Source: Methanothrix sp.
GTDB taxonomy: Archaea; Halobacteriota; Methanosarcinia; Methanotrichales; Methanotrichaceae
DNA: 50,880 nucleotides
Assembly: GCA_025361645.1 (NCBI GenBank)
Contig: JANYKI010000104.1
Span: 1-50,880, forward strand
Direction: 5' to 3'
Below are positions 21,581 through 29,147 of this stretch, piece by piece. The notes below the pieces were generated by a model. It worked only from the letters and a program-made list of their open reading frames with translations, was not told where the DNA came from and ran no database searches. A program made the position numbers and the translations under genes. The first letter of the stretch is position 1, and each line of letters opens with the position of its first letter.

Positions 21581-22706
21581 ATGGAGCCATACATCCCCGA
21601 TCATCTGCCCCTCAAGTCCATTGATTGGCTGAGCCACATCAAAAAGATGAGCCATGCGACCATAGCCATTGCTCGGTACGACGGCATTCTTCAGGGAATG
21701 CCCAACCCCCAGGTTCTCCTCTCACCAATGCAGACACGAGAAGCGGTGATTTCTTCAAGAATAGAGGGAACACAGGCATCGCTTGAAGAGGTCCTTCAGT
21801 ACGAAGCGGAGGTCAGTTATGCTACAGAGCAGGATCGCGAAAAAGATACGGCAATAGTCCAAGATATCCACGAGGTCCTCAATTATCGGCAGGCAATGAT
21901 GCATGCCATGAACTCATTGGAGAAGCGCCCGCTTGGCATCAACATGATACGAGACTTGCATCGTATCCTTCTTTCCGGCGTCAGGGGCAGATACAAGAAT
22001 CCCGGAGAAATCCGCCATACACAAAACTGGATTGCGCCTCCTGGAACTCCCATGGAAAAAGCGACATTTATTCCACCAGAGCCTTCAATGATAATGGATG
22101 CGCTCTCTAACTGGGAGGAGTACATGCATAGTACCGAGAAGAACGATCTCGTGCAACTGGCGGTTCTCAAGGCCCAGTTTGAGATGATCCATCCCTTTTC
22201 GGATGGCAATGGTCGCATCGGAAGGATGCTCGTGCCGCTCATCCTCTACAAAAAGAGAATCTTATCCAGTCCCATGTTTTACATCAGCGGCTACCTTGAA
22301 AGCAATCGAGATATTTACTACGAAAGGCTCAGGGCTGTATCCACGGAAAAGGACTGGGACAGCTGGATTTCCTTCTTTCTTCAAGCAGTTGCAGAGCAGG
22401 CAAGCGAGAACAGCCAGAAGGCCATAATGATCCTGGCACTATATGATAAGATGAAAAAAACAGGTGCCGGAGATTACGCATTCTCAGTATTCCATCCAGA
22501 TCATCGATGCCATCTTTTCTCGTCCGATTTTCAAATCAAGCGATTTTGCAGAGAAGTCAGGTATTCCAAAAGGCACAGCTCGTAGGCTGGCGCAAGACCT
22601 CAATGCCAATGGTATTTTGGAGGTCAAGCGGGAGAGATCCGGGAGGCGACCGGCAATCTACGTGTTCTCTCATCTGATTGACATCGTCGAGAAGAATATC
22701 ATCTAA
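21581..22706 (+). pseudogene. Fic-domain AMP-transferase, split by one extra A
   Basis: The first frame (21581-22585) holds a complete Fic core: catalytic HPFSDGNGRIGR at residues 204-215 and an N-terminal inhibitory motif S58-x3-E62-G63 (SSRIEG), so it is a self-inhibited class II Fic protein. After the seven-A run at 22454-22460 the frame is lost. The frame from 22464 carries the expected C-terminal winged helix (PIFKSSDFAEKSGIPKGTARRLAQDL in shortened form). With six A's the two join into 374 residues. Fic enzymes transfer AMP to target proteins. Either the C-terminal domain is lost in vivo or the extra A is a sequencing error. Confidence 0.8.
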
Positions 22707-22728
22707 CGTGACAATGGACAACAATTAG

Positions 22729-22795
22729 TTTATGACTCACAAACAATGGGTTCATGAGTCATAAAGGCTTTTATGTACAATATATGAGTCATAAA
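22729..22795. repeat. Inverted/direct TGAGTCATAAA repeats after the Fic gene
   Basis: TTTATGACTCA (22729-22739) is followed by its exact inverse TGAGTCATAAA at 22755-22765 and again at 22785-22795. The first pair can form an 11-bp stem with a 15-base loop. It could be a terminator-like structure or a binding site. Confidence 0.6.
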
Positions 22796-22840
22796 CCAAG
22801 GGACTTTTGAGGCCAGTTCCTTCTTTCCACGGTTTTTGCT

Positions 22841-22992
22841 CCACATGCCGCCCACCCGGCCTCCCCCGCCCGATGGGCAAGCCCGCCCTCGCCAAGGCAG
22901 CCCACGAGCTGGCCAGCGACGGTCAAGTGATTGTCATGCCTTCGCGGCTTCGCGCCTTCGCGTGAGACGTTAGTAGTATGGTTATAATTATC
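22841..22992 (+). repeat. Island repeat, copy D (variant tail)
   Basis: GC module (GCCCGCCCTCGCCAAGGCAG, then CCCACGAGCTGGCCAGCGAC) followed not by the usual AT module but by a CTTCGCGGCTTCGCGCCTTC tail and TTAGTAGTATGGTTATAATT. Copy F has the same tail, so this is a second repeat subtype. Confidence 0.7.
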
Positions 22993-23070
22993 AGCTAATA
23001 TTAATAACAAACCGAAGACATTGCTTTCCTAACCAGCACCCGAAAACTCCCCTCGCCAGAGGTATGCGCC

Positions 23071-23236
23071 TACTGGGTCAACAGGCCCGACCGGCCACGC
23101 ACGCCCGGACACAAGCGCACAGACGAGCCTCCGAGCCCGAGCGGCACTCCGGAAGCGAGGCCCGGCCCGGTTGGCAGCCCACTGCCGCCAAGGCCCCAGG
23201 TAGCCCACGAGCCGGGCCTGCGGCGGTCAAGGAAGA
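23071..23236 (+). repeat. Island repeat, copy E (GC module only)
   Basis: Contains CCGAGCCCGAGCGGCACTCC, GAGGCCCGGCCCGG and TAGCCCACGAGCCGGGC. It ends at the 3' end of the second vapC. Open frames through it are repeat-driven and not counted as genes. Confidence 0.7.
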
Positions 23237-23240
23237 TAGA

Positions 23241-23663
23241 TTATCTTGCCCCAAGCCAGCTCTCCGGGGTCATGGTTGCCACAGCCGAAGGGCAGCGACT
23301 CAGCATCTCCCGGTCCCAAGTGATCAAGGTTGCACCAAATGCCTCTGCTACTGCAACGTATACAGCATCAGCACCCCTTAGCCGATGCAGGATAGCAATT
23401 TTCGCCGCCTTCCTGGCAAGCGTTAGATCAAGCGGGATCAGATTCATGCCAGGAAAATCTTCTAAGATCGCAACAAGTTCTTCTGCCAAGGAAGGGTTCC
23501 CCGTCTGCCTGGCGATGGCGGCTGCACATTCAGCCAGCGCAAGAGTAGGGCAATAAACTTCCAATGATTGTACACTTCTTAGAAAATTCCTGCTTATGAG
23601 ATAACTGGATTCATAGGATCGAGCTGAAGAGACAAAAACGCTGGCGTCGATGGTCCACCTCAT
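23241..23663 (-). CDS. vapC: PIN-domain toxin (second VapC-type)
   Basis: A 140-residue PIN ribonuclease with Asp6 (WTIDASVF), Glu45 (LALAECAAA), Asp99 (RGADAVYVAVAEA) and Asp117 (ITWDREML), all four metal-site acids present. The sequence differs clearly from the VapC at 18122-18502, so it is not a recent duplicate. Its ATG overlaps the stop of the upstream antitoxin (ATGA). The 3' end touches repeat copy E. Confidence 0.85.
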   Translation of the reverse strand: MRWTIDASVFVSSARSYESSYLISRNFLRSVQSLEVYCPTLALAECAAAIARQTGNPSLAEELVAILEDFPGMNLIPLDLTLARKAAKIAILHRLRGADAVYVAVAEAFGATLITWDREMLSRCPSAVATMTPESWLGAR

Positions 23664-23920
23664 CGGCGCATCTCCGACAAGACCTCCACGGCAGTTTTTT
23701 CTCCTTTCCAGTCCCGGCTTACCTTCTGTGCCAGCGCATCCATTCGATCATCCCAGTTGCCTGCCTGCTTCTTCTTGGTTTTTCCAGGCTGAAGCGAAAC
23801 GAGAAGAGCTACAGGACAGCCTTCCGACCCGATCAAGGTGATTGATGCTCCGAGAGGTAGGCCATTTAGCAACTCCTCTAAATTGCTTTCAGCCATCTTT
23901 ATGGGCAAAGCTTCAGACAT
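23660..23920 (-). CDS. vapB: Antitoxin partner of PIN toxin
   Basis: An 86-residue protein (from ATG at 23920; an upstream TTG at 23929 is less likely). MAESNLEELLNGLPLGASITLIG with PVALLVSLQPG resembles the Phd/YefM-like fold, in which a short beta sheet and helix bind DNA. The charged C-terminal part (RMDALAQKVSRDWKGEKTAV shortened) would thread into the toxin. It is coupled to the PIN gene by a four-base overlap. Family assignment is tentative; its role as the antitoxin follows from position. Confidence 0.7.
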   Translation of the reverse strand: MSEALPIKMAESNLEELLNGLPLGASITLIGSEGCPVALLVSLQPGKTKKKQAGNWDDRMDALAQKVSRDWKGEKTAVEVLSEMRR

Positions 23921-24000
23921 AAGACTCAACTCTATTTATTATTTGTAGCGGATCCTAGGATGCATCTTGGACATAATATTATAAAGCATCTTCGCCGACA

Positions 24001-24186
24001 TTCTGCTGCAAAAAGAGGATGATAGTAACCACAGACGGAACGCTACTTGAAGACCATCGAGCCGAAACACTGCCCACCCGTCAAGGCCCTCAGGCAGCCC
24101 ACGAGCATGCCAGCAGCAATCAAGTGATTGTCATGCCTTCGCGTGAGCCGTTAGTAGTATGGTTATAACTATCAGCTAATATTACC
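24001..24186 (+). repeat. Island repeat, copy F
   Basis: Begins inside the AT module (GATAGTAACCACAGACGGAA), passes a short GC module (GGCCCTCAGGCAGCCCACGA) and ends with the CTTCGCGTGAG tail and GTATGGTTATAACTATCAGC, as in copy D. It fills the gap between the PIN pair and relBE. Confidence 0.7.
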
Positions 24187-24258
24187 TTCACCTCATCTAT
24201 TTAAACCAAGAAGAATACAATAACTTCGTAATGCGCAAACGTGCGTCCAGGTGAATCT

Positions 24259-24453
24259 ATGGCAGGCATATCCGACGAGCAATACATAATCGATGCTAAA
24301 GGCAATAGAAAAGGAGTTATTCTTTCCATAGAACGCTATGAGCAGATGACTGAGGATCTTCACGATCTGGCAGTCGTTGCTGAGCGTAGGAATGAACAGA
24401 CCATTAGCTTAGAAGAGATGAAGCGAAGGCTGAAGCAAGATGGCATCGTTTAG
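24259..24453 (+). CDS. RelB/Phd-like antitoxin
   Basis: A 64-residue small protein starting MAGISDEQYIIDAKGNRKGV, with SIERYEQMTEDLHDLAVV, the usual Phd/YefM-like antitoxin pattern, and a charged tail (EEMKRRLKQDGIV). ATG at 24259 is preferred over GTG at 24241 because AGGTGA precedes it by six bases. It overlaps the RelE toxin gene by 14 bases, so the toxin is made only with its antitoxin. It probably autorepresses. Confidence 0.82.
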   Translation: MAGISDEQYIIDAKGNRKGVILSIERYEQMTEDLHDLAVVAERRNEQTISLEEMKRRLKQDGIV

Positions 24454-24706
24454 AATTGACTTCAAGCCGTCCGTAGAAAAAGACCTGCGTCGCCTGCCTG
24501 CTGATATAATCTCTCGATCGATGGAAAAAATTGAGAACCTTGAATCCGAGCCATTTCCCCCTCAATCGATCAAGGTATCTGGATCAGAAAGACTCCATCG
24601 TCTTCGGGTTGGCGATTATCGGATAATTTATGAGGTTGACGCAGTGAAAAAGGTGATTACGATTCATTACATCCGTCCTCGCAGCATTGTGTATCGTAAT
24701 TTATAG
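24440..24706 (+). CDS. relE: RelE/ParE-family toxin
   Basis: An 88-residue toxin of the RelE/ParE superfamily. FKPSVEKDLRRLP at the N-terminus, SGSERLHRLRVGDYRIIYEVD in the middle and the final ITIHYIRPRSIVYRNL match the compact alpha/beta fold. Basic residues in LHRLRVGDYR and the late Arg/Tyr are those expected for ribosome-dependent mRNA cutting in RelE-like members; ParE-like gyrase poisoning cannot be excluded. Overlaps its antitoxin. Confidence 0.87.
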   Translation: MASFRIDFKPSVEKDLRRLPADIISRSMEKIENLESEPFPPQSIKVSGSERLHRLRVGDYRIIYEVDAVKKVITIHYIRPRSIVYRNL

Positions 24707-24780
24707 AAATCTTGTGATTCACGGCAAGCCCTTTCGGATATAATTTGCGCAGAAAAATCTTCTCAGTTCGTCCCCCCTAC

Positions 24781-25229
24781 CTCAGTTCTGGCCCGACCGG
24801 CCTCCTGCGCCCGCACACGAACGCGCACATGCGAGCCCCCGAGCCCCAGCAGCACTCCAGAGCGATGCCCCGGCCCGGTGGGCTAGCCCGCCCCCACCAA
24901 GGCAGCCACGAGCGGGCCAGCGGCGGTCAAGCGCTTATCATGCACTTTTAGGATAGGGTAATGGGCCAAATGTCCCCACAAAAGTCTTTGTGCGTCCTTT
25001 GTGAGCTTCGTGATCTTTGTGGTTGGATTCGTTCGTCGTCGCTTTGCAGATAGCAGCTAATAGTAACCGAAGACATGGAAGTTGCATGGAGACCAGTCCT
25101 TGCAGGAATATTGCTCATCAGGCTTCCCCCGCCCGCACCCGAGCACGCGCAGCCGGGCCCCCGAGCCCGAGCGGCACCCCGATGCGAGGCCCGGCTCCGG
25201 TGGACTAGCCCGCTGCCGCCAAAGCCCGG
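24781..25229 (+). repeat. Island repeat, copy G (GC-AT-GC)
   Basis: The fullest copy: GC module (24786-24935, with CCGAGCCCCAGCAGCACTCC), AT module (24945-25100, TTTTAGGATAGGGTAATGGG onward, nearly identical to copy A), and a second GC module (25115-25229, CCGAGCCCGAGCGGCACCCC). It ends a few bases before the operator cluster of the AbiE-like operon. Confidence 0.8.
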
Positions 25230-25233
25230 CAAG

Positions 25234-25312
25234 CTATCACTGATACCCTTATCTACCTATCACAAAATACTGATATCACCTATCACTGATAGATTTATAA
25301 ACTGATCAGTGA
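25234..25312 (+). promoter_or_regulatory. Operator cluster and TATA box of the AbiE-like operon
   Basis: Half-sites CTATCAC and TGATA(G) recur: CTATCACTGATA at 25234-25245, CTATCAC-7-TGATA at 25257-25275 and CTATCACTGATAG at 25280-25292, plus TGATATCA at 25271 and the palindrome ACTGATCAGT at 25301-25310. A TTTATAAA TATA box lies at about 25294-25301, about 30 bases before the start codon. The half-sites resemble the tet operator core. Autorepression by the AbiEi-like protein is the simplest reading. Confidence 0.6.
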
Positions 25313-25327
25313 ATAACGATATGAAAT

Positions 25328-26344
25328 ATGACGAAGATCTCTCCCTACGACTCTGATCTGATCACCCTTCTCCGCACACAGCTTGGATTCGGTGAGCATG
25401 CGATAATAAGGCAAGAGAGCACGCTCAGTGACATCTATCCCCTTCAGTTTGACCTGATCATCGAAGACGGCAGCAAAACGTATGTAGTCGAACTCAAACG
25501 GATCGTGCGTCTCGACGAACTCTCGCAACTCGGACTGCTAAGACTGCTCATGAATGCGAGCTGCACCAGCACCGACAATATCGAATTCATCATCGCCGGA
25601 AAACTGATAACAAAGGACGTTGCGAAGGCCGCAGAAAAGATCGGCATCAGATTCATCAAGCTGCCAGCCGGTGCGAACATGGAAGAGGCCCATGATAAGC
25701 CCGGCAACATGCCTGTAAAGCTTACATCTCCCAAGTCCTGGCAGGTTATCTCATATCTCCTCAAAGTGAAGGCGTCTTCCATCCGACAGATCGCAATCGG
25801 ATCTGGGGTCTCCTACGGTTGGACTCACGCGGTCGTGCGGACTCTTGCTGCAAGGGGAATCGTATCAGATACAGGAGGCCATGCAGAGATTACCGATATC
25901 AACAAACTTCTCAACGGGATCGCATGGGAGCGTCCGTTCGAGAGGCTCTTGGCCCAGGAGATTCGAATAGCTGCCAATAGCCCAGTTGCGCTCGCACAGG
26001 AAATCTGCCTCGTATGCGATGAGCAGCAAATTCCATGCGCTTTTACCAGTTTTACTGCAGGCGAGATTTACACCGGCTACAGCGCAAGGCATGATTCAGC
26101 ATACCTGTATCTTGAAAAGAAAAACATCGCTGAGCTTACTGGAATGTTTGACGTGCATAGCGATGGAGGAATCATCACACGGATCTATACACCCGAACGT
26201 GATGTGTTCAAGGATCGCCGGATATTTTCCACGCAGGGCGTCTGGCTTGTCTCTCCTGCACAATCGCTCCTCGACTGCGCGGGCCTCGGATATGCAGGCC
26301 GCGATTTAACTCAAAAGCTGGTGGAAATCTATGACCAATTATAG
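25328..26344 (+). CDS. AbiEi-like antitoxin/regulator with N-terminal PD-(D/E)XK nuclease-like domain
   Basis: A 338-residue protein. Residues about 1-110 look like a PD-(D/E)XK nuclease fold: Asp42 in QFDLIIEDG and Glu55-x-Lys57 in YVVELKR, then a helix with LSQLGLLRLL. Residues about 133-195 form a winged helix (VISYLLKVKASSIRQIAIGS), and the C-terminal half matches the AbiEi antitoxin type (GEIYTGYSARHDSAYLYLEK). AbiEi proteins repress their operon and neutralise AbiEii. ATG at 25328 is just behind the TATA/operator cluster. It overlaps the nucleotidyltransferase by 14 bases. The nuclease domain is the unusual part. Confidence 0.68.
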   Translation: MTKISPYDSDLITLLRTQLGFGEHAIIRQESTLSDIYPLQFDLIIEDGSKTYVVELKRIVRLDELSQLGLLRLLMNASCTSTDNIEFIIAGKLITKDVAKAAEKIGIRFIKLPAGANMEEAHDKPGNMPVKLTSPKSWQVISYLLKVKASSIRQIAIGSGVSYGWTHAVVRTLAARGIVSDTGGHAEITDINKLLNGIAWERPFERLLAQEIRIAANSPVALAQEICLVCDEQQIPCAFTSFTAGEIYTGYSARHDSAYLYLEKKNIAELTGMFDVHSDGGIITRIYTPERDVFKDRRIFSTQGVWLVSPAQSLLDCAGLGYAGRDLTQKLVEIYDQL

Positions 26345-27086
26345 CGCCCAACAAACGGTCATCAGTGCATCGCGAGAAGAGCTGATCGAGATATTTCGGT
26401 GGGTGCATGCCAGGGAGAAGAATGAGAAATATCCTATCACTGTACTCGTCGGCGGCTGGGCGGTATACAGCTACAACAAATGGTATGGATCGGTAGATAT
26501 CGATCTCGTCACCAACAGCAAAACCCGGCAGAGTCTTGTGTGGTACCTGAGGAATGAGCGCGGATTTGTTCCTCAGCGGGATGAGATGGCCCCTACTACC
26601 ATTGCGAAAAATGCTCACGAAGGAAAGATCCTGATCGATTTCGGATCGCGTGAGGATCTCTACTTGTTTGAAGGTAGGGACGAGGAATGCCCGTTCTCAC
26701 TCCTGGACGGTCGCACTGCGGCACGAGATATCGGTACTGGTTTTCCAGTTGTTGTCCCGGAAAGGACACTGCTTATGATTTTCAAGCTTAAGGCAGCATG
26801 GGACCGGTCATTCCGGATACAGAACGGAACATCGAGTGACGAGGAATGGGAGCAAGGAAAGCTGCGCAAGGACCGTGCTGATATTCTCGCACTCCTTGAC
26901 CCTGCGGCAGGGGGAACGGAGACTGATATTCTATATTTAGGTGAGCGGCTCCATGAGTATCCATTCCTTGTGGAAATGCTGCGGGAGATCCCCGACGATA
27001 ACGATGCAATCAGCATGTATCGCAGGATGAATCCAAAGGATGTCCGGGATTCTATTGAGGGGCTGCTCCAACTCGTGCTAGACTAA
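26331..27086 (+). CDS. AbiEii-like nucleotidyltransferase toxin
   Basis: A 251-residue member of the polymerase-beta-type nucleotidyltransferases. GG41-42 in LVGGWAVYSYNKWYGS followed by Asp56 and Asp58 (VDIDLV) is the catalytic GG...DxD motif, and Asp103 (ILIDFGSRED) is a candidate third acid. FKLKAAWDR and KDRADILALL resemble motifs of AbiEii, where nucleotides are added to tRNA to stop growth. It overlaps the AbiEi-like gene, as in type IV toxin-antitoxin operons. It could alternatively be a MNT-like transferase. Confidence 0.72.
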   Translation: MTNYSAQQTVISASREELIEIFRWVHAREKNEKYPITVLVGGWAVYSYNKWYGSVDIDLVTNSKTRQSLVWYLRNERGFVPQRDEMAPTTIAKNAHEGKILIDFGSREDLYLFEGRDEECPFSLLDGRTAARDIGTGFPVVVPERTLLMIFKLKAAWDRSFRIQNGTSSDEEWEQGKLRKDRADILALLDPAAGGTETDILYLGERLHEYPFLVEMLREIPDDNDAISMYRRMNPKDVRDSIEGLLQLVLD

Positions 27087-27130
27087 ATAAAATGAGTTTC
27101 GTTAAAAGGATTCCTGTCTTCATACCGATC

Positions 27131-27282
27131 TCTTGCCAGCCCTCACCCGCAGCTCATCCGGCCTCCTGCGCCCGCACACGAGCACACAGACGAGCCCCCG
27201 AGCCCGAGCGGCACCGCCTGGAGCAAGGCATGGCCCGGGAGGGCAGCCCGCCTCCGCCAAAGAGCTTCTTGCTTATCATCGA
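27131..27282 (+). repeat. Island repeat, copy H (GC module only)
   Basis: GC module with CCTCCTGCGCCCGCACACGA, CCGAGCCCGAGCGGCACCGC and GGGCAGCCCGCCTCCGCCAA. It lies between the AbiE-like operon and the convergent C45 peptidase. Confidence 0.7.
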
Positions 27283-27323
27283 GCCGCACGCTCTCCCGCG
27301 CCATTAGCCGCAACTGCAAAAGG

Positions 27324-28571
27324 CTATAATTGATGCCCAGAAAGTCCCGCCTCACCTTCCTCCTGGAAGAATAGATTCAGGTCCACCTCTATCCAGTCCT
27401 GCACCCCTGGAATTCTGACATAGATCTCTAGATCTTCCGGTACCGCTACCACCTGGTAGCTTGTGGGAAGCTCTTCCGTTTGAAGCGCCCCTCCTTCCGA
27501 CAGAGGACGGCTCATGATATCCATCATGATATCAGGCGTAAGCTTTCCTTTCTGCATCTGTGCCAGGGTGAGGAGATTACGGCTACGCTCCTCAGTCCGA
27601 ATGGGATCGTTTATGCCAGGGACAGGCGTCTCGAAGCCCCATTCCGGGTTTTGGAAGTGGTTGGTTGAGACGAGAAGGCCATCTTTGTCGAGAGTTCTCC
27701 TCTTCAGATCGAAGGGCGTCCACTCGTAGGATCGGGCCCCTCTCTCATCTGCCACGTTCACAATGCATCCGTCCGATGGCCTGGCGGAGCGAAGCCTCCC
27801 ATCGATCTCCTCAAGGCTGGCTGAGTCCTCAAGGAATGTGAGGAGAAGAATGGGCGTTGTTACCGTATTCGTAGTGAAGATGCTCTCAGATGTGTCACCG
27901 TTGGTCTCCAGGAAGATTCCCCTCTGGTTCATGCCGGTGTTCAGATAGATAGACCCTGTGTAATGGACACTTGCCACAGGGATGCTTCCGTCCTCGGGGT
28001 TAAAAACCACTACTACTATGTACTGGCGCATCTTATCGCTCCAGTCGTAGTTCCTCCCAAAGACCAGTGGCCCATTGGATGTATAATTGCCCCAGACAGC
28101 CATCGCAGAGCAGCCATGGGCAGAGAGTAGGTAGATCTGCAGGCAATTTATGACTAAGAGATCATTCAGTCCAAGACCAGATGTTTCTGCCATTCCCAGG
28201 ATGATTTCTTTGTACCTCTGAGGGTAGAGCTGGAAGGACCTGTTGCCAAAATTTAGGAGTTGATCGCGAGTGGGAGCTTCGGATTTTCCAAAGTCACGGC
28301 TCATGTTATCGTAGATCTGATTCAAGTCCTCTTTGAGAAGATAGCCGTACTGCCTTCCCATCTCTCTATAGCTTCCGTGAAGCTCAAGCACCTTCAGGGA
28401 TTCGAGTTGAAAGAGATGGCCGCCCTCAAAAGCTGCCACAGAGGAGACAGAGATTGAGTTATTTTTCAGATCTGCAGCCAGAGATGATGAGCAGAGCAGC
28501 AAAACTACAAGGGCCAAAGCTCCCTTAAGTGGTAAAGAGTGGCCTACGACTACGTGTTTCCGTGTGAACAT
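27324..28571 (-). CDS. Secreted C45-family Ntn hydrolase (acyl-CoA:6-APA-like)
   Basis: A 415-residue exported protein. The N-terminus has a basic patch and a hydrophobic stretch (ALALVVLLLCSSSLAA), so it is exported. The C45-family core follows: LHGSYREMGRQYG, then the nucleophile context AHGCSAMAVWG with Cys154, GPLVFGRNYDWS and the late GSIYLNTGMNQRGIFLETN. The family self-cleaves before the cysteine and acts as acyltransferase or amidase; the substrate here is unknown. It stands alone and is convergent with the AbiE-like operon. Confidence 0.82.
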   Translation of the reverse strand: MFTRKHVVVGHSLPLKGALALVVLLLCSSSLAADLKNNSISVSSVAAFEGGHLFQLESLKVLELHGSYREMGRQYGYLLKEDLNQIYDNMSRDFGKSEAPTRDQLLNFGNRSFQLYPQRYKEIILGMAETSGLGLNDLLVINCLQIYLLSAHGCSAMAVWGNYTSNGPLVFGRNYDWSDKMRQYIVVVVFNPEDGSIPVASVHYTGSIYLNTGMNQRGIFLETNGDTSESIFTTNTVTTPILLLTFLEDSASLEEIDGRLRSARPSDGCIVNVADERGARSYEWTPFDLKRRTLDKDGLLVSTNHFQNPEWGFETPVPGINDPIRTEERSRNLLTLAQMQKGKLTPDIMMDIMSRPLSEGGALQTEELPTSYQVVAVPEDLEIYVRIPGVQDWIEVDLNLFFQEEGEAGLSGHQL

Positions 28572-28604
28572 CCTAAAATCTCCGTTGTGCGTTTGAAGTT
28601 GGTC

Positions 28605-28760
28605 TTAGAGGTTGCCTTTGAGCAACAGGTAAACGAAATAGACCACAATTGCGAAGAATGCCAATCCGCCCAGGAACCACATGGTTTTCCAGAGGAAAGC
28701 AACGATTATGACTGCAAGAACCAACAAAAGCAAGTTCTTAATACTTCTCTCGATAGCCAT
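28605..28760 (-). CDS. Small membrane protein, 51 residues
   Basis: A complete short frame MAIERSIKNLLLLVLAVIIV... ending LLLKGNL-stop. Residues about 8-24 and 28-48 are hydrophobic, giving two membrane helices with an FLWKTMWFLGG turn. Codon use is coherent and the charged N-terminus is typical of a small membrane protein. It is 33 bases beyond the start of the C45 gene, on the same strand, so they may be co-transcribed. No function is recognised. Confidence 0.6.
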   Translation of the reverse strand: MAIERSIKNLLLLVLAVIIVAFLWKTMWFLGGLAFFAIVVYFVYLLLKGNL

Positions 28761-28916
28761 GTCTTAAATGAGGTCATCTTCCAATAAAACCGTTTCGACA
28801 GAAGAATCGCCACCCCAAATGAAGATTCGGGACACTCACAAGAAACGATAACTATAACAGGATTACACTCTGATTGACTGAGGTGATAAACAACGGACAA
28901 AATCGATTTTGAGATC

Positions 28917-29147
28917 ATGAAAGCAATAGCTGACCTCAAGGTTCCCTACCCAAAAGCAGATAGGATCAATTCTTTAGTAAAAATTGATCCTGAAGAACTT
29001 GGGGCACGCCTGGGGGTCTTGGAGATGCAAGGATATGTCAAGAACCAAAGCGAAACGGAAACGGTGGGTTCTAGCCTCCCCAACGATGTATGTGCGAGCG
29101 GGCTAACTAATCTGGGGAGGCGGGCTTTGGCGGGACCGAGATGGTAA
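28917..29147 (+). CDS. Small winged-helix-like protein
   Basis: A 76-residue frame, MKAIADLKVPYPKADRI..., with a segment LGARLGVLEMQGYVKNQSE that reads as recognition helix plus wing of a winged-helix domain, and a final LTNLGRRALAG typical of such small regulators. The stop lies right where repeat copy I begins, so the C-terminus may have been truncated or altered by the repeat. No clear Shine-Dalgarno. It may be real or a remnant. Confidence 0.4.
   Translation: MKAIADLKVPYPKADRINSLVKIDPEELGARLGVLEMQGYVKNQSETETVGSSLPNDVCASGLTNLGRRALAGPRW

Follow-up and report, generated by a model that had tools for sequence, protein, structure and literature searches.

We describe a gene pair of Methanothrix sp. 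(GCA_025361645.1, contig JANYKI010000104.1) that, with a probability we put at about 0.74, represents an autoregulated AbiE-like type IV toxin-antitoxin (TA) module of the COG4861-COG4849 (AbiEi_2 - AbiEii) branch, whose NucS-like domain is kept mainly for binding. The assignment is drawn from sequence. The window analyzed is the whole contig, 50,880 bases of a 2.43 Mb genome. AbiE systems are among the commonest phage-defense modules. In the proposed mechanism the toxin would transfer nucleotides to RNA, probably to tRNA acceptor ends, and this transfer would stop growth; the C-terminal domain of the regulator would neutralize the toxin, possibly by inducing phosphorylation of S54; the winged helix would bind the TATCACTGATA sites, block access of TBP/TFB and so repress the operon; and the NucS-like domain would act mainly as a nucleic-acid-binding or dimerization module. 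The interest of the pair is in the role of this N-terminal domain and in the conserved operator, not in a new arrangement.

Gene organization and genomic neighborhood

The upstream gene (25328..26344, + strand) encodes a three-domain antitoxin/regulator of 338 aa, defined by its ORF, 42 full-length relatives and a profile match to bacterial AbiEi_2-type antitoxins. The downstream gene (26331..27086, + strand) encodes a predicted AbiEii-like nucleotidyltransferase (NTase) toxin of 251 aa, recognized by G41G42, S54, D56, D58, D103, K152 and K180-D181-x-x-D184. The two ORFs bear out the 14-nt gene overlap reported in an earlier note on this DNA, and its placement of the pair among TA modules also held, with a PIN toxin at 23241-23663 (- strand) on the upstream side and a RelB-like/ParE pair at 24241-24706 (+ strand). 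In the alignment of 42 full-length archaeal relatives of the regulator (24-74% identical), residues 1-120 evolve fast, residues 131-200 are the most conserved and residues 201-338 form a third region; mean conservation of the N-terminal domain is the lowest of the three (0.42 vs. 0.61 and 0.55 for the other two domains).

The region directly upstream (21581-24706) is a small TA cluster that comprises a Fic/DOC protein, the PIN-domain toxin with an unrecognized partner, and RelB-like/ParE. A dispersed repeat, rich in G+C and about 50-105 nt long, lies between genes at 23091, 24799, 25121, 27158 and 29305 (window 22842-29353), and copies of it stand immediately before and after the AbiE-like pair. 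Farther along, the product of 29649-31109 (486 aa) has a matrixin (M10) metalloprotease domain, here in an archaeal genome.

The N-terminal domain has a NucS-like fold

Sequence comparison and structure modeling showed that residues 1-120 (25328..25687, + strand; D42, E55, K57, and Q67) form a PD-(D/E)XK-fold domain of the NucS/EndoMS kind. Asp42, Glu55 and Lys57 do occupy these positions in the regulator, and four lines of evidence agree with the PD-(D/E)XK-like domain proposed earlier. A Pfam search gave no match for the N-terminal region of the window regulator; among the 42 relatives, Pfam NucS_C matches 19 (best 2.7e-6). The family profile retrieved NucS (2vld; E 1.4e-4) and EndoMS (2.2e-3) from the PDB, and in P. 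abyssi NucS the residues aligned with E55 and K57 are E174 and K176, which belong to its conserved nuclease motif; their equivalents in T. kodakarensis EndoMS, E179 and K181, are catalytic (PMC7343888). When profiles were compared with each other, archaeal NucS matched the N-terminal domain at a probability of 94%, with D42 on the catalytic Asp of NucS and Q67 on a NucS Gln, and unrelated pairings used as a control gave 0.1% or less. The fold search suggested for residues 1-115 returned NucS/EndoMS for all of the top five PDB matches of the N-terminal domain, then largely other PD-(D/E)XK enzymes, and did not point to an unrelated fold.

The AlphaFold2 model, built from three sequences (window, L002, and L003), has an alpha-beta-beta-beta-alpha-beta-alpha-beta core in the N-terminal domain (pLDDT around 70-80 over the better parts), which includes the PD-(D/E)XK core alpha-beta-beta-beta-alpha-beta, in which strand 2 carries the D and strand 3 the E-x-K. 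This full-length model is good for the N-domain core only: the C-terminal domain is of low confidence, as is the winged-helix region (helix-helix-helix-strand-strand). A model of the isolated N-terminal domain was poor (pLDDT 42) and was discarded. The domain thus modeled shares with the C-terminal domain of NucS/EndoMS the fold, the D-x(12)-E-x-K layout and a Q further along, but differs from it in being fused to a winged helix and an AbiEi domain and in having often lost the triad. When the full NucS/EndoMS architecture was sought in the regulator, the NucS N-terminal domain was absent and the C-terminal-type domain alone was found.

The regulator matches bacterial AbiEi_2-type antitoxins end to end

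The winged-helix DNA-binding domain (25718..25927, + strand; about residues 131-200) contains the invariant S162-Y163-x-W165, and HVO_A0114/TrmB/MarR-type HTH matches in family members support its assignment. It is followed by the AbiEi-type C-terminal domain (25928..26341, + strand; about residues 201-338). PF09952 (AbiEi_2) gave nothing above cut-off for the window regulator and one match in the phylum, the diverged relative L045 at 9.8e-10. Through L045 we reached bacterial antitoxins encoded on plasmids, 350-390 aa long, many of them annotated 'type IV toxin-antitoxin system AbiEi family antitoxin'. Nearly all of these AbiEi_2-type antitoxins are encoded directly 5' of an AbiEii-type gene. 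The whole archaeal regulator aligns with them end to end (99.1%, E 5.2e-19, 322 columns), and the winged helix plus C-terminal domain matches the bacterial AbiEi_2 C-terminal domain at 98.6% (E 1.3e-15); the HTH and AbiEi_2 matches substantiate the winged helix and AbiEi domain named by the earlier note. The unannotated N-terminal 130-150 residues of the bacterial antitoxins match NucS at 93.8% and the archaeal N-terminal domain at 91.8%.

The search for homologs of the same three-domain order next to AbiEii genes was therefore successful, in plasmid-borne bacterial loci. The bacterial branch has the N-terminal domain too, and the archaeal pair does not show the new arrangement that had been supposed; the three-domain design is already common in bacteria, and what is newly found here is the operator. 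COG4861 regulators have already been paired with COG4849 NTases by Dy et al. (PMC3985639). By homology we assign the pair to the AbiEi_2/COG4861-type AbiE modules, of which it is a predicted archaeal representative. No description of a PD-(D/E)XK domain in AbiEi was found in the literature searched, which covers subscription journals thinly and is thus weak evidence; the nuclease-fold domain in AbiEi_2-type antitoxins has apparently been little noticed.

The predicted toxin carries AbiEii motifs I-IV

Thirty-two relatives were counted as having a toxin partner, one of which (L027) is shortened by an in-frame stop. G41, G42, S54, D56, D58, D103, K152, R159, R162, K177, K180, D181, and D184 are invariant in 32/32 partners, and this includes the GG...DxD core recognized earlier in the second gene (GG at 41-42, D56-I-D58). 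In terms of the AbiEii motifs defined previously (PMC3985639), motifs I and II (hG[G/S]-x(n)-DhD) are present, but the spacing is x13 instead of x15 and the motif II arginine is absent; motifs III (KLxAaxxR) and IV (+DxxD) are found as K152-L-K-A-A-W-D-R159, with the aromatic shifted by one position, and K180-D-R-A-D184. No curated Pfam threshold is reached by the window toxin, for which DUF6036 scored 0.12 and PF08843 gave no match. PF08843 matches 16 of the 32 partners (best 2.9e-5), and the miss is an effect of the detection threshold, not a biological feature. The toxin was assigned by its motifs because direct comparison of its profile with AbiEii sets gave weak matches (2.3% and 0.9%). 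These motifs and the end-to-end match of the regulator uphold the AbiE-like type IV pair first proposed. S54 precedes the first of the catalytic aspartates (D56) by two residues, just as the phospho-acceptor T39 precedes D41 in the T-x-D of MenT1 (PMC11375011), and neutralization through S54 phosphorylation is accordingly a possibility.

Role of the N-terminal domain and alternative explanations

D42 ranks first in conservation among the 120 N-domain positions, E55 10th and K57 34th (n = 42). The conservation of D42/E55/K57 expected by the earlier note was borne out for D42, with 39 D and 3 E among the 42 relatives, and not for the full triad, which is intact in 22 of the 42 archaeal relatives (D/E exchange allowed) and broken in 12 of the 32 with a toxin partner. 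On a tree built without the N-terminal domain, the triad changed at least 12 times, and 8 of the changes are forced by well-supported branches. In bacterial relatives, read off the alignment, D...E-x-K is intact in 11/18 and broken in 7/18. The broken triads in toxin pairs indicate that catalysis is dispensable for the shared function, and the N-terminal domain is predicted to be catalytically optional. Because its fold is kept in 42/42 relatives and the triad has been lost repeatedly, we infer that it is mainly a nucleic-acid-binding or dimerization module; a point against this is that D42 ranks first, more than a structural role by itself would account for.

These repeated losses, and the broken triads among the bacterial relatives, make it improbable that the N-terminal domain is an active nuclease cutting DNA or RNA (e.g., phage DNA or toxin-altered tRNA), even if only in the lineage of the window. 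The idea that the regulator possibly cuts nucleic acid survives for the window protein, in which D42/E55/K57 and Q67 are intact, so that residual catalysis is possible there, and not as a general property. The ranks of D42 and E55 also favor it, and 7/8 Methanothrix-group relatives keep the triad, the exception (L009, D-D-R) adjoining a broken toxin gene. Triad loss was commoner where the toxin had been lost (Fisher p 0.03), but on independent pairs there was no significant link (median p 0.5), and the proposal that one tracks the other was dropped. We consider it quite unlikely that AbiEi_2-type antitoxins with D42/E55/K57 are enzymes cleaving nucleic acid, such as toxin-modified tRNA or invading DNA, with triad-less lineages having become pure repressors; if this were true, one protein would repress, neutralize and cut. 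A possible, if doubtful, role for the NucS-like domain is in neutralization instead of DNA binding, through contact with the toxin or with the toxin's tRNA substrate. Retention of the fold despite triad loss and the low conservation of the domain, as expected of an interface, are consistent with this role, but in characterized AbiE the C-terminal domain alone suffices for antitoxicity (PMC3985639), and shorter relatives without the N-terminal domain (L045 and L054) also adjoin NTases.

Could the pair instead be an ordinary transcriptional regulator beside a metabolic NTase? The position of the NTase under the curated family cut-offs would fit, as would the toxin-less regulators L050-L053, which in some genomes adjoin the same housekeeping genes as if adopted for another task. 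This is nevertheless very unlikely in view of the match of the regulator, over its whole length, to proteins annotated AbiEi and encoded beside AbiEii, the several pseudogenized toxins among the relatives and a patchy distribution (the regulator is present in 7 of 50 genomes searched within the order of the window). Among 393 genomes, each of the 29 strong toxin matches follows directly on a regulator gene, and nine regulators lack an intact toxin (five with the toxin missing or broken, four diverged and solitary). That the regulator is sometimes alone and strong toxin matches never are is the asymmetry predicted by a TA pair.

In L002/L004 the regulator is intact and the toxin missing; in L009, the sole Methanothrix-group member with an altered triad, the regulator is intact and the toxin pseudogenized. 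L050-L053 form a diverged regulator branch with E55 changed to Gly in 4/4, and L052 and L053 have identical neighbors, a peroxiredoxin-like and a GMP-synthase glutaminase-like gene; the branch looks like an antitoxin recruited as a stable chromosomal regulator. Searches of viral contigs, of plasmids (with the window's own two proteins) and with PADLOC returned no relatives of the pair.

Comparison with known systems

The AbiEi_2 (PF09952) - AbiEii pairs of bacteria have the regulator upstream of the NTase with genes slightly overlapping or abutting, as here, and the homology of the plasmid examples includes the PD-(D/E)XK-like N-terminal domain. The archaeal pair differs from them in its hosts, in its own conserved operator and in a toxin too diverged for Pfam cut-offs. 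Rv0837c-Rv0836c of M. tuberculosis is another of these COG4861-COG4849 pairs; the likeness drawn here is to the bacterial plasmid examples. The type IV AbiE systems of Streptococcus and Lactococcus (AbiEi COG5340 - AbiEii COG2253) share the winged helix plus antitoxin domain and NTase motifs I-IV; their AbiEi has two domains, whereas the archaeal regulator has the extra NucS-like domain. MenA-MenT of M. tuberculosis likewise has an NTase with S/T-x-D by the catalytic aspartates, T39 of MenT1 standing in the place of S54 (PMC11375011), but its antitoxins MenA1 and MenA3, as described there, are without such an N-terminal domain. How COG4861-type antitoxins neutralize the NTase has been stated as an open question (PMC11375011), and a NucS-like domain in many of them makes this question directly testable.

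Promoter and operator array

Four unstranded operator sites precede the regulator gene. Site 1 (TATCACTGATA, 25235..25245) is an exact TATCASTGATA aligned with the promoters of relatives; site 2 (25258..25275), an 18-nt dyad TATCAC-N6-CTGATA, is kept in the promoter alignment of eight close relatives; and site 3 (TATCACTGATA, 25281..25291) is kept upstream of 36/41 testable relatives. A putative TATA box, assigned by consensus (TTTATAAA, 25294..25301, + strand), lies between sites 3 and 4, and relatives have an A+T box at the same place (TTTATATA and similar). Site 4 (GATCAGTGAATAACGATA, 25304..25321), identified in the promoter alignment, is degenerate; in relatives it is of the TATCAC-TATATA-GTGATA type. 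The eight promoters share the operator array, and the DNA farther upstream is unrelated. As in characterized AbiE (PMC3985639), the sequence thus has an inverted-repeat operator at the pair's own promoter.

Across the phylum, an exact TATCASTGATA occurs near the start in 36/41 testable relatives (0.009 expected from base composition), and 27 relatives have two or more sites, most often 43 nt apart. The operator stays near-identical even at roughly 33-43% protein identity. In the whole 2.43 Mb genome there are two copies, both in the promoter of the pair. The double site was found in 23 of 386 genomes, and a reversed control pattern in none; by coordinates, 22 of the 23 are directly upstream of the regulator. 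TATCASTGATA was not found in the bacterial AbiEi_2-type loci; it is absent from the toxin-less branch L050-L053, and L049 has one mismatch. The conservation of the operator and its restriction to the promoter of the regulator strongly suggest that the operon is autoregulated by a winged helix of fixed DNA specificity, and the operator gives a convenient means of locating such modules in archaea and studying them. At one locus (L139; G157:C56:30416-30469) the full array, with two TATCASTGATA and further sites, adjoins neither a regulator nor a toxin gene, and the nearest same-orientation gene looks like ilvD; this array is either what a deleted module left behind or an operator that has been captured.
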